Source of the DNA: Nitrosomonadaceae bacterium
GTDB taxonomy: Bacteria; Pseudomonadota; Gammaproteobacteria; Burkholderiales; Usitatibacteraceae
Assembly: GCA_021300055.1 (NCBI GenBank)
Contig: JAJTHU010000057.1
Location: 1 to 41,850, forward strand
Direction of reading: 5' to 3'
Length of the DNA: 41,850 nt
Shown here: positions 311 to 39,762 of the stretch, one piece after another
Layout: every line of letters begins with the position of its first letter
Position numbering within the stretch: position 1 is the stretch's first letter
Notes under the pieces: model-generated
Seen by the model: the letters and a program-made list of their open reading frames with translations, nothing else
Told to the model about the DNA's origin: nothing
The model's database searches: none
Made by a program: the position numbers and the translations under genes

Positions 311-2458
311 TTATGACTTCGGCGGATTGATGATGATGGGAGTCTTGCGTTTACGCCACCAGAACCAGTAGACGAAAAAGCCAATTACAAAGAAAGGCAA
401 AAGCGGGGGGAAGAGGCTCAGGATGATCAGCACGGGTATGCCGATTGCCAGCGCAACAAAAATGAAGCTCAAGCCATACAGCACCGCAATGACGATCAGC
501 GCCACAATTGACAGGATGCCGAACGCAAGCAGCAGGATCAGCGTTCCAATGGCCATCCCCTCTAGACCGCTGATTTTGGTGTCACCAATCGTCAAGGGAA
601 GCAGTCCACTCGCCAGCCCGATGATCCCAACGATAAACATCACACCGAGCACGGCGATGATGGCAACGAACGCTTTTACAAGGAAATTCGCCCACGCACT
701 ATGCGTTTTGGCAGCGACCCTCAGCGTTTTCGCATGCCAAGTTTTTGGGGCTTCCTCTGGCGCAGAGTCGGCGGGTGCTGCGTCAAACACCGTCGCACCA
801 TTAGCCGGGACCTCGATCATTGCGATGACACCTTTCGGGGAGTTCGCCTCAAGCGTCAGATGAGCCCGGTCTGCAAACAAGGCCTGCAGACGCTCTCGTA
901 TGTTAGCGAGTCCTACGCCGCCGCCCAGTTGAACTGGCTCATCAGAGAAGCCGCGACCGGTGTCTTTCACAATCATGCGAATCGTTGCGGCATCGCCCTC
1001 CCCCACTTTTTCGGCGATCACGTCGATGCGTCCGCCCTCACGTACGGGCTCTAAACCGTGTTTGATTGCGTTCTCGACTAAGGAAGGCAGCATCAATGGT
1101 GGGAATGGCGCGTTGAGAAGCGCGTCCGGCACCATCACATCAAACTCAAGCCGCGTGCCCATGCGCATCTTCAGAATGTTGAGGTATGCGCGCACCAGCT
1201 CCACTTCTTGACCGACGGTCGATATGTTCTCGCGCATTTTTGGGAGCGACGCGCGCAGATACTGAATCAAGTGCCCCGTCATTTGATTGGCTTGCGCCGG
1301 GTCCACCTCGGTGAGCGCCTGCACATTTGCCAGTGTGTTGTACAAGAAATGCGGTTCAACTTGGGCCTGTAGCGCCATCAACTTCGCCTCAACAATTTGG
1401 CGGTTCACGTTCGCTGACTCGGCCTCCTGCGTCTTCTGTGCGGCTACATCCTGCGCGCGTCGAGAACGCCCGATGTAGTACTTCACGACCAACAAAAGGA
1501 AAAACAGCGGGAAGAAGGCCAAGATCAGCGCCGAGCCAATCCCAACTCGTTTGAAATCACTTGTGACTTTGCGGCGAATGTCGTCACGCAACTCAGGCGG
1601 CAGTGGCGGCGATGGAGGGCTTGCCGCATCAGGCGCGCTCGGCGGCGCGGGCGGCGGGATAGCCGCAGTAGCGTCTAACGTAATTACTGGCGTGCCTGAG
1701 GGCGTCTGGGAAATGCTCCCCTTAATGCGCTTCTCTCCCGCGCCGAGGTCAAAGTTGAGGGCTTCGTCCGATTTTTTTGACGCAATCGACTCTGTTGCTG
1801 TCGTCTGTCCCGGCCCGATGCCGATGAAAATCGGCAGGCTCTTCTTCAATTCACTTATCGCGGCTTCTGCCTGCTTAACGCTGGCCTCCGCCTCGGCGAT
1901 CGCTTTATCAAAACTCGCAAGTGTCGATTCATCCTTAACGCCAACACGTTCCTGGAGAGTCCGCGCCTCCTGCTTGGCGTTGCGGAGTTCCTGAAGTCGC
2001 TCACGTGCAGCATCGCGAGCCTGCACAGCAGCTTCGCGCGCCCGCTCACGCGCATTGGTGGCGGCCTCTTTGGCCATCCGTTTCGCTTCGCGGGTGGCCT
2101 CCCCAGTTGCGTCGGCGATGGCGCGCTCTGCATCACCAGCGACCACGGCCATTTCTTTGCGGGCTTCCGCAATATCACGCAATGCCTGCTCAAGCTCAGC
2201 GCGACGCCCCGCATCAGAGGTGCGTTCCACCATAGAGGTCACAACACGCTCGGCTAGTCCCAGGGCACTGTCCTTCATCGCCAAATCAACTTCCCGCTGC
2301 ACCGCACGCCGCTCCGCAGCGTTGGCATTGGCGTCCGTCAACTTGATGACATTCGTTGGAACCGTGAAAAGCGCGAGGAGCAGCAGGACGAACAAGCCGC
2401 CGAGCAACATGGCCCACCAGGGCGTTTTGTAAATGGCGTTACCGAGGAACTTGAACAT
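311..2458 (-). CDS. LytS/YehU-family sensor histidine kinase with N-terminal coiled coil and C-terminal membrane domain
   Basis: 715 aa ORF. Contains His_kinase-type motif EPHFLYNTLANVQAL, HATPase N-box LVENAIKHGLEP and GGGVGLANIRERL. TM near the N-terminus, TM before the kinase core, several hydrophobic segments after it. Confidence 0.9.
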   Translation of the reverse strand: MFKFLGNAIYKTPWWAMLLGGLFVLLLLALFTVPTNVIKLTDANANAAERRAVQREVDLAMKDSALGLAERVVTSMVERTSDAGRRAELEQALRDIAEARKEMAVVAGDAERAIADATGEATREAKRMAKEAATNARERAREAAVQARDAARERLQELRNAKQEARTLQERVGVKDESTLASFDKAIAEAEASVKQAEAAISELKKSLPIFIGIGPGQTTATESIASKKSDEALNFDLGAGEKRIKGSISQTPSGTPVITLDATAAIPPPAPPSAPDAASPPSPPLPPELRDDIRRKVTSDFKRVGIGSALILAFFPLFFLLLVVKYYIGRSRRAQDVAAQKTQEAESANVNRQIVEAKLMALQAQVEPHFLYNTLANVQALTEVDPAQANQMTGHLIQYLRASLPKMRENISTVGQEVELVRAYLNILKMRMGTRLEFDVMVPDALLNAPFPPLMLPSLVENAIKHGLEPVREGGRIDVIAEKVGEGDAATIRMIVKDTGRGFSDEPVQLGGGVGLANIRERLQALFADRAHLTLEANSPKGVIAMIEVPANGATVFDAAPADSAPEEAPKTWHAKTLRVAAKTHSAWANFLVKAFVAIIAVLGVMFIVGIIGLASGLLPLTIGDTKISGLEGMAIGTLILLLAFGILSIVALIVIAVLYGLSFIFVALAIGIPVLIILSLFPPLLPFFVIGFFVYWFWWRKRKTPIIINPPKS

Positions 2459-2517: not shown

Positions 2518-2622
2518 TTAGTCTTCGAGGGCCACCCACAGCATGGCGGCAACAGAGATCGCAATCGAACCGAGCACCCAGAAGGTGGGAGGCAGCGAGT
2601 ACAACCAAGCGAGCGTTTCCAT
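2518..2622 (-). CDS. Possible 34-aa single-TM small protein
   Basis: Reverse-strand reading METLAWLYSLPPTFWVLGSIAISVAAMLWVALED*. Lies between the response regulator and the downstream kinase gene. No convincing Shine-Dalgarno seen, start uncertain. Confidence 0.4.
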   Translation of the reverse strand: METLAWLYSLPPTFWVLGSIAISVAAMLWVALED

Positions 2623-2852
2623 ATGTGGCTGGCGATAGGGGATAACAGATGTCGTAGCTTATGGCCGCCGTTCGCACGTCGCAACGCAGGATTGGTCAGA
2701 ATGCAGAAGCGCGGGAATAGCTTGCAGCATTCGCGGATATCTGGAGCGCTGGTTGGCACCAGGAACCAGAAGCAAAACCCCAGTATTGGCGGGCATTTTT
2801 CAGGCGAAAGTGCCCCAAAACGCCCGTATTTGCTAGAGTTTATGCCTAAGCG

Positions 2853-3644
2853 CTACATCTGCTTGAACAGATGCGTGAAGTTGCGGCTAACCGTCAAGGT
2901 TTCTGGTCTGCCCTTGAGCCTCAAATCCGCTTGGTCGCGTTGCCCGCGGACAACTGCCGCGATAGCACTTGTGTTGACGATCGTGGCACGATGAATCTGC
3001 CAGAACCGCTTTGGGTCGAGCTCCTCGAGCAATTCCTTGATGGGCTTGCGGATGAGCACCTCTGCGTCAGTTAGCACCACGCGCGTGTACTTTTCGTCAG
3101 ACTGAAAGTAGAGAACTTCGTCGACCGCGATCAAGCGTACTGTCTGACCAACACTCGCCTTGATCCAGTTGAGGTAGTCGCGCTGCGCTGATGTGAGCTG
3201 CCGGATAACAATGCTTAGTGCATCCTCAGCGTCGCTGTCGGATGACGCAGCTACCGACTCGCGCTCTTGAAGACGCGTGACAGTTTCTTGCAGACGATCA
3301 GCCTCAAATGGCTTGAGTACGTAATCGATCGCGCCGCGCTCGAAAGCAGTCACCGCATACTGGTCGTAGGCGGTCACGAACACAATCTGCGCGCGCTTGA
3401 AGTCGCCGCTGGGCAGTTTGCGCCCGCGGCCAATCATGCGCGCCACATCCAAGCCAGACATAACGGGCATGTGGATGTCGAGAAAAACAATGTCTGGCAG
3501 CAGTTCCTCAAACTGCGCGATCGCATCCGCGCCATCCGCCGCTTCACTGACGATATCGAGACTCGGCCAAAGAGTGGCAAGCTGCTCCCGCAATTGCGCG
3601 CGGAGTAGGGGTTCGTCATCGGCAATCAACGCAGTTGGTATCAT
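2853..3644 (-). CDS. LytTR-family response regulator
   Basis: REC domain (MIPTALIADDEPLLR..., phosphoacceptor IVFLDIHMP, K in YVLKPF) plus LytTR domain (VDEVLYFQSDEKYTRVVL...RFWQIHRATIVN). Start at 3644 preceded by AGGAG; the longer ORF to 3722 is unlikely. Confidence 0.93.
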   Translation of the reverse strand: MIPTALIADDEPLLRAQLREQLATLWPSLDIVSEAADGADAIAQFEELLPDIVFLDIHMPVMSGLDVARMIGRGRKLPSGDFKRAQIVFVTAYDQYAVTAFERGAIDYVLKPFEADRLQETVTRLQERESVAASSDSDAEDALSIVIRQLTSAQRDYLNWIKASVGQTVRLIAVDEVLYFQSDEKYTRVVLTDAEVLIRKPIKELLEELDPKRFWQIHRATIVNTSAIAAVVRGQRDQADLRLKGRPETLTVSRNFTHLFKQM

Positions 3645-3714
3645 TTCACTCCTGCTTTGGGGTTCGCGTTGCATCGCGAACCCGTCTCGGCGGGCAAAAG
3701 CCAAGCAGTTGGCA

Positions 3715-4800
3715 TCACCCACCCTCTCCGGTCAACGTCGGTAACTGTCCCAGAGGAATCTTCAGCCGCGCCTCTACGCCCTGCTCTGCGCGCTCACGTA
3801 ACTCAAGACTTGCGCTCGCGCCGAACAGTGCGCTGAGTCGCTCCCGGACGTTTTGCAGGCCAACACCTGGCGTGGCAGTCGGCACGATGCCGTGACCCGA
3901 ATCAATCACTCGAAGCAACAAGTGCTCACCATCGCGCGCAGCATCGATGGTAATTTCTCCTCCTGCTTTTACTGGGTCGATGCCGTGCTTGATTGCGTTC
4001 TCAACAAGGGTCATGAGCATCATGGGCGGGATGATCGTGTCGGCGATTGTCGCGTCAATGCTGATCGCAAAGCGCAGCCTTTCACCCATACGCACACGCT
4101 GGATCTCAAGGTACGCTCTGGCTAACTCGACTTCGCGAGCCAGCGTGGTTGTATCGTCACGCATTTGGGGCATGGCGCTACGCAGGTAGCGAATCAGACT
4201 CCCCAATACCTGATTGGCCAGGGCCGGATCTTTGCCCACCAAATGCTGGACGTTGGCGAGCGTATTGAACAGAAAGTGCGGTTCAATTTGCGCTTGCATC
4301 AGCTTCAGACGCGCCTCGAGCACCTGTTTTTGCAAAACGGTTTCGCGCGATGCGGCTCGTGCGCTCTCGACGTCGGCCCGCGCAGCGCGTTCTCGGTACA
4401 CGAGCAGCATGGCGGTGATCGCCCCGATACCAATCGCAACCGTCGTAAAAACGAGGATGCCAAGCAACATCGGCTCTACCGTAAACATCTGCGTCAGGCT
4501 GCGTCCGAGCACCAAACCGGAGGCAACGGTCCCGAGGAACGCCGCGATTGGAACCGAGACCAATTGAGCAGTCAGCAGAGATAGCCGTGGGTTCGGCACG
4601 CTACGCCAGATTGCCTCAGTTGCGATGAAGGTCACCATCATCACAAGTGCGACAACAAACAATCGCAGCCACAGCATGCCAAAGGGCACTTTGTAGCCGA
4701 AATAGGGATTGACAATAAGCGCGGCTGCCGTCGTGAGCACGAGCAGCCAGATCAGGCGCTTGAACGAAGCGATTTGCACCCAGAGATTTGCTGTTTCCAT
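3715..4800 (-). CDS. LytS/YehU-family sensor histidine kinase
   Basis: EPHFLFNTLANVQHLV, LVENAIKHGIDPVKAGG, GVGLQNVRERL; N-terminal TM segments. Start METANLWVQ at 4800 preferred, upstream ATG at 4836 possible. Confidence 0.9.
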   Translation of the reverse strand: METANLWVQIASFKRLIWLLVLTTAAALIVNPYFGYKVPFGMLWLRLFVVALVMMVTFIATEAIWRSVPNPRLSLLTAQLVSVPIAAFLGTVASGLVLGRSLTQMFTVEPMLLGILVFTTVAIGIGAITAMLLVYRERAARADVESARAASRETVLQKQVLEARLKLMQAQIEPHFLFNTLANVQHLVGKDPALANQVLGSLIRYLRSAMPQMRDDTTTLAREVELARAYLEIQRVRMGERLRFAISIDATIADTIIPPMMLMTLVENAIKHGIDPVKAGGEITIDAARDGEHLLLRVIDSGHGIVPTATPGVGLQNVRERLSALFGASASLELRERAEQGVEARLKIPLGQLPTLTGEGG

Positions 4801-4939
4801 GCAGCAAAGATTACCTCGCGCGGTAGTTGCATGCACGAGTGCTGCGATAAAGCGCGGAAAACCGGCAGAGAGAGGTGACTTTGTGCCTCTCGGGCGCGTC
4901 TAGCGATGGCGCCGCTGATGCAATCCGTTGTCCTCTACC

Positions 4940-5470: not shown

Positions 5471-5686
5471 TCATCGGCTGGCGACCTGCACCAATTTGGT
5501 GGTGGCCGGAATGAGCCGCGTTGCGACAACTTCGATGCGCTCGACAGTGCTGGTGGACGCTGTCACGCGTTGTGCATCGAGTTCGGATTGGCTGGCGAGG
5601 GTAGCGATTCCTGCCACCATTGCCGTGGTGACGAGGACTGCACCGAGCGCTGCCATCCCCTTGTGGGCGTTGGGTAGCGTAAACAT
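5471..5686 (-). CDS. Small membrane-anchored or exported protein, unknown function
   Basis: 71 aa MFTLPNAHKGMAALGAVLVTTAMVAGIATLASQSELD...; AGGAA upstream of the ATG and a terminator downstream. Confidence 0.6.
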   Translation of the reverse strand: MFTLPNAHKGMAALGAVLVTTAMVAGIATLASQSELDAQRVTASTSTVERIEVVATRLIPATTKLVQVASR

Positions 5687-5854
5687 GATGGGTTCCTGTC
5701 AAAAAGTTAGTTAATCAATCGAGCCTGCAGCACATCAACTTGTGGTCTCTGTATTGCAGTGTCGACAGATTAAGGTTCCCAAGATGTTGCGGATAGTCGG
5801 ATGCGACAAAACGAACAAATCGCACCGCGGAATGCGCTACGCACCGACAAATAG

Positions 5855-39293: not shown

Positions 39294-39351
39294 TGCCTAA
39301 TTTTAGACGTTCGCGAAAGCCCGCCGCGCTGGTGCAGCGCTAGAATGAATG

Positions 39352-39580
39352 TGTTCGTGGTGCTCGTGTGCAGCAATGCATGCGCGTTAAACGGGAAGTG
39401 CGTGTGAGGGGTCCTGCCGCCGCGTCTTTTTGGCGGCTTGTCCCATCAATTCGCACACTGCCCCCGCAACGGTGATTGAGAACACGATGCCGAAGTACCA
39501 CTGAGTGAAGCTGGCTTGGGAAGGTGGCATCTGGCGACGTTGACGCGTCGCGCTCATCAGTCCGGATACCGGCCAAGAAC
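39352..39580 (+). promoter_or_regulatory. Cobalamin (AdoCbl) riboswitch
   Basis: GGTGCTC, TTAAACGGGAA, ACTGCCCCCGCAACGGT, GCCGAAGTACCACTG, CAGTCCGGATACCGGCC, in canonical order upstream of a BtuB-like gene. Confidence 0.96.
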
Positions 39581-39762
39581 CATCCTCGCGATATCCGCGC
39601 GAGCGATGTGGCGCGCCATCGACTGAGGTTGGTGGCGTATTGGCTTGTCGCTTGCGGGGACGCTCGCGACACACTCAATCCTTCAACATGCAATATCTTG
39701 TCTTTCGTTGCTCTCCACCTCGCCTCTTAGCACTTACCGGCTTCCCACCAACCAAATCCAAG

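Follow-up and report, generated by a model that had tools for sequence, protein, structure and literature searches.

At the start of the window, by which we mean the whole stretch of 41,850 nucleotides that was analysed, lie genes for LytS-type kinases, a LytTR response regulator and small single-TM proteins, together with predicted operators:

311..2458, minus strand: sensor kinase of 715 aa, here called ccLytS (ORF, Pfam, about 20 orthologues)
2518..2622, minus strand: gene for a 34-aa single-TM microprotein, located between the RR1 and ccLytS genes and immediately preceding the latter (conservation in about 11 loci)
2695..2727, minus strand: LytTR-type direct repeat CTGCAAGCT-N12-CTGCATTCT, predicted to control the microprotein-kinase operon as its operator (matrix hit)
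2853..3722, minus strand: LytTR response regulator RR1 (Pfam Response_reg and LytTR)
3715..4836, minus strand: LytS-type kinase 1 (LytS1), without a C-terminal membrane domain (Pfam)
5471..5686, minus strand: gene for a 71-aa single-TM small protein behind the second predicted operator (relatives have 86–98-aa counterparts in the same place)
5800..5837, minus strand: second predicted LytTR direct-repeat operator (no other matrix hit in the window scores above 8)

In the genome to which the window belongs, ccLytS is located at a contig end, and the first 47 nt of another contig, C88, overlap the end of the window. C88 encodes RR2 (52-822), a LytS (899-2170), RR3 (2198-2968) and a VanZ-like protein. 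Given this overlap and the genes that follow it, the locus is most likely a tandem array in the order LytS1-RR1-microprotein-ccLytS-RR2-LytS3-RR3, with three kinases and three regulators. Positions 1-266 of the window hold two tandem copies of a 135-bp repeat (96% match), which takes in roughly the initial 30 nt of the RR2 gene (MTYTAVIAED / MTFTAVIAED); since the same 47 nt open C88, this repeat probably broke the assembly. In relatives, the syntenic block flanks the kinase on one side with genes for a symporter and ABC1; after the kinase come a LytTR regulator, frequently a further LytS and LytTR pair, and then hexapeptide-transferase, VanZ-like, ferredoxin-like and hydrolase genes. Far from this array, the window also contains a cobalamin riboswitch (39341-39591, plus strand; Rfam RF00174, 87.2 bits).

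The kinase gene starts with ATG, and from its N-terminus the protein is made up as follows, ending in a hydrophobic domain of ~130 aa:

2360..2416, minus strand: TM1, aa 15-33 (hydropathy; alignment)
1841..2320, minus strand: predicted extracytoplasmic helical/coiled-coil region, aa 47-206 (AlphaFold2; orthologue alignment)
1598..1666, minus strand: Pro-rich linker, about aa 265-287 (sequence)
1484..1540, minus strand: TM2, aa 307-325 (hydropathy)
1148..1387, minus strand: His_kinase domain PF06580, aa 358-437, with the phospho-acceptor candidate H370 (Pfam; H370 invariant in the alignment)
803..1090, minus strand: HATPase_c domain PF02518, aa 457-552 (Pfam; alignment)
347..739, minus strand: C-terminal membrane domain, aa 574-704, probably with 4 TM and both ends cytoplasmic (alignment, AlphaFold2, hydropathy; hhalign to a standalone family)
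566..622, minus strand: predicted extracytoplasmic loop with a short hairpin inside the C-terminal domain, aa 613-631 (sequence comparison, AlphaFold2, hhalign)

This succession of segments had been proposed in a sequence-only reading of the DNA, and hydropathy, AlphaFold2 and Pfam agree with it. An invariant TPWW motif occupies aa 12-15, its end overlapping TM1, and the coiled-coil region differs in length between orthologues. Weak HpsJ and DXP synthase matches in the coiled coil were taken as low-complexity chance.

ccLytS is a LytS-type histidine kinase (PF06580 and PF02518). The only Pfam domains found in it are His_kinase (79.1 bits, cut-off 25.2) and, directly after it, HATPase_c (29.8 bits, cut-off 26.4), and it is linked to LytTR regulators, with RR1 in the window, RR2 on C88 and synteny in relatives. 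The N and G boxes of HATPase_c are present, with N463, D499, G501, G503 and G514-L517 (including G516) invariant in the orthologues. Because H370, N463 and the DxGxG motif are invariant, the core should be active. Neither a multi-TM (5TM/7TM) N-terminal receptor nor a GAF domain was found by Pfam and hydropathy; a single TM flanks the coiled coil on each side.

For the C-terminal domain, hydropathy gives three strong segments (597-615, 639-657 and 665-683), and a fourth, at about 684-703 in ccLytS, is above the threshold in about 8 of 19 orthologues. Together with the basic C-terminal tail, these segments suggest that the domain crosses the membrane four times and has its two ends in the cytoplasm. 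The AlphaFold2 model of full-length ccLytS has a long helix (83-172), a low-confidence linker, C-terminal helices (574-617, 632-682 and 684-703) and a short hairpin (622-629); its pTM is 0.33, so only local helices were taken from it. Modelled alone, the C-terminal domain comes out as a helical bundle of low pTM (pLDDT 85.7, pTM 0.56), which served for helix and hairpin positions only.

Given that the contig ends 310 nt downstream of ccLytS, with the 135-bp tandem repeat at that place in a draft assembly, the C-terminal extension could in principle reflect a frameshift, a misassembly or an annotation fusion of two genes. We hold the probability of such an artefact to be negligible and reject it: about 20 independent orthologues, from the same genus and three other genera of the same family, keep the architecture in one continuous frame, and one of them comes from Betaproteobacteria bacterium GR16-43, whose genome is complete (CP019169.1, 4806848 bases). 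The genome of the window is therefore betaproteobacterial, in an order named here, after most of the hits, as Burkholderiales; we take GR16-43 to belong to Usitatibacteraceae. The orthologues are 42–65% identical over their full length, and W589, F597, G631, G638, YGL661-663, P684, P688 and W698 are invariant in the C-terminal domain; the same layout across the genus and family, with these invariant positions, excludes chance as well as a frameshift, a concern that had been raised for the hydrophobic region. Profile searches of 300 genomes of the order confined the fused form to the family of ccLytS, and the fusion is also present on two MAG contigs (L118, and L120, which is labelled Rhodoferax). 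It is unusual, as had been supposed, for a kinase of the LytS-type class to have membrane segments behind its ATPase domain: no TM segment followed the kinase core in any of 42 other LytS-type kinases from this genome, its relatives and other families of the class.

A search with the C-terminal domain alone, which the sequence-only reading had recommended, returned no match above cut-off in Pfam, NCBIfam or PDB sequences, and Foldseek returned no PDB fold below E 5. A sequence match to AcrZ (E 0.76) covers one TM helix and was taken as chance. Profile searches of the order and class instead recovered unannotated standalone membrane proteins of 110-130 aa in several other Burkholderiales families, themselves with no Pfam or NCBIfam match above cut-off. 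When genome contigs were searched, ccLytS's own C-terminus alone retrieved nothing and the family alignment retrieved 11 loci; the weak or doubtful standalone hits L070, L071 and L096 were left out of the family. In hhalign, the domain aligns with the standalone family over 96 columns (98.1% probability, E 8e-14). This comparison is not fully independent, since the search with the fused domain supplied the hits that make up the standalone profile, A4; but A4 in its turn retrieves the fused proteins. The alignment includes the non-membrane hairpin motif and extends over the hydrophobic segments after it. By sequence comparison, then, the C-terminal domain is homologous to the standalone family, and the best explanation is that a four-helix membrane module, which either derives from these small proteins or is common to both, has been fused to the kinase. 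In the short loci read, the standalone genes do not lie beside LytS or LytTR genes.

The sequence-only reading had seen in this domain a possible second sensing or anchoring module. The data are compatible with such a module, and its role in sensing is one that we infer. The main alternative is a passive anchor or dimerization device that holds the core at the membrane while the N-terminal coiled coil alone senses. The strong hydrophobicity of the domain, its few invariant polar residues and the plausible input region already present at the N-terminus would fit this reading, but ccLytS is already anchored by two N-terminal TMs, and motifs kept across orthologues of such divergence (the hairpin with G631, YGL, P684/P688 and W698) exceed the needs of an anchor. 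The hairpin and Pro pattern, moreover, recur in the standalone proteins, and on this evidence we regard a passive anchor as somewhat unlikely. The existence of the domain on its own also raises the idea of an effector or carrier, e.g. a small channel or transport accessory, in a bifunctional protein whose kinase reports the carrier state; LytS-type systems such as BtsS/BtsR control transporters (PMC10653868). Against this, no transporter family was hit in Pfam, NCBIfam or PDB and no charged residue is conserved among the invariant columns, and we consider a carrier quite improbable.

Upstream of ccLytS, the microprotein keeps its position, size and C-terminus across about 11 loci. Its counterparts in relatives have 24-36 aa, and most end in EDY or SDY and often have a Shine-Dalgarno-like sequence. 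In informative pairs, pN and pS were 0.03/0.22, 0.11/0.41, 0.04/0.32 and about 0.25/0.75 (pN/pS about 0.13-0.35), indicating purifying selection, as expected for a translated protein. An evident copy is absent in several members of the window's genus. In relatives across genera, the microprotein gene is preceded by a direct repeat, CTGCATTYC, with a 21-bp period, followed by the -10-like CCTAATCT. The predicted site, of the type CTGCATTYC-N12-CTGCATTCC, has the layout of typical LytTR sites, i.e. two 9-11-nt repeats with 11-13 nt between them (PMC4847170).

Using a matrix trained only on other genera, we found the repeat at 2727-2695 to be the single best of 83.7k window positions. We relied on this matrix and on the full pattern, as a simple repeat score (threshold 12.5) was not specific: it gave 36 hits in the window and still 12-20 in shuffled sequence. 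The 26-bp operator pattern, allowing ≤3 mismatches, had 12 hits in 300 genomes, and the reversed control had 0. The sole hit with 0 mismatches lies upstream of a standalone homologue in another family, beginning 122 nt before that gene's start. At 4 of 13 standalone loci (L066, with the site near 1322-1354, and L089, L090 and L091 from three other genomes, of which L090 and L091 are near-identical), the operator is convincing, in that the site beats every other window of the same locus.

The second site class precedes the gene of the small single-TM protein that heads the LytS1-RR1 operon. In the tails of the 71-aa protein and its relatives there are motifs, among them VTVTAQR and stretches like VEVVATR, that may be reminiscent of TonB-box-like sequences, and L051 appears to have several tandem copies of the gene (86–98-aa class). 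In a related genome, a 90-aa membrane protein (L109) is encoded directly behind an operator-like direct repeat. Two operator-like hits in a genome of the same genus precede genes for an M48 membrane peptidase (L105) and a DUF5916/CBM9 protein (L108), a hint that the LytTR regulon is linked to the envelope; the suggestion that envelope state is the signal is a weak one. Besides the fusion, the analysis brings to light the conserved microprotein and a set of small membrane proteins predicted to form a LytTR regulon.

Our working model combines an active LytS-type kinase, RR2 as its partner, an autoregulated operon and the fused C-terminal module as a second input; as a whole, we give it about an even chance of being correct. 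ccLytS would dimerize through its core and the extracytoplasmic coiled coil and would phosphorylate the LytTR regulator RR2, encoded directly downstream, which we infer from gene order to be its most likely phosphotransfer partner. The predicted direct-repeat operator would drive ccLytS and the 34-aa microprotein together, under the control of a LytTR protein of the locus; since the kinase operon has such an operator, the circuit is probably autoregulated. The C-terminal module would most likely serve as a second input, tying the ATPase domain to the membrane and adjusting the kinase's activity in response to inner-membrane state or, as feedback, through bound small membrane proteins that belong to the same regulon. 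A bolder version, which we think unlikely, is that the kinase acquired a membrane module akin to proteins encoded in its own regulon; the ATPase domain would then be clamped between two membrane modules, with direct product feedback tuned by the 34-36-aa microprotein.

Compared with known systems, ccLytS shares with the LytS/LytTR pairs YpdA/YpdB and BtsS/BtsR of E. coli the His_kinase and HATPase_c core and an adjacent LytTR regulator. Unlike them, it has no 5TM/7TM receptor or GAF domain, carrying instead a coiled coil between two TMs and a C-terminal membrane domain, and its locus is most likely a three-kinase/three-regulator tandem array with a microprotein gene. Its predicted operator and the E. 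coli YpdB site, a repeat of GGCATTTCAT (PMC4847170), are both direct repeats with units of about 9-10 bp and a 21-bp period. A deposited histidine kinase (PDB 6swj/6swk) matches the ccLytS core by sequence (aa 364-506, E 1.3e-15), and this match leaves out the coiled coil and the C-terminal domain. The core belongs to a known kind; in the open-licence literature searched by keyword, no description was apparent of the architecture, the domain relationship or the microprotein. The standalone 110-130-aa proteins, which have no fused kinase and for which no family name was found, resemble the C-terminal domain in the hairpin and the next hydrophobic segments, and some of their genes have the same predicted operator upstream. 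A fusion whose extra part is also found as a gene of its own behind the same predicted operator offers a testable link between the kinase and a family of small membrane proteins.
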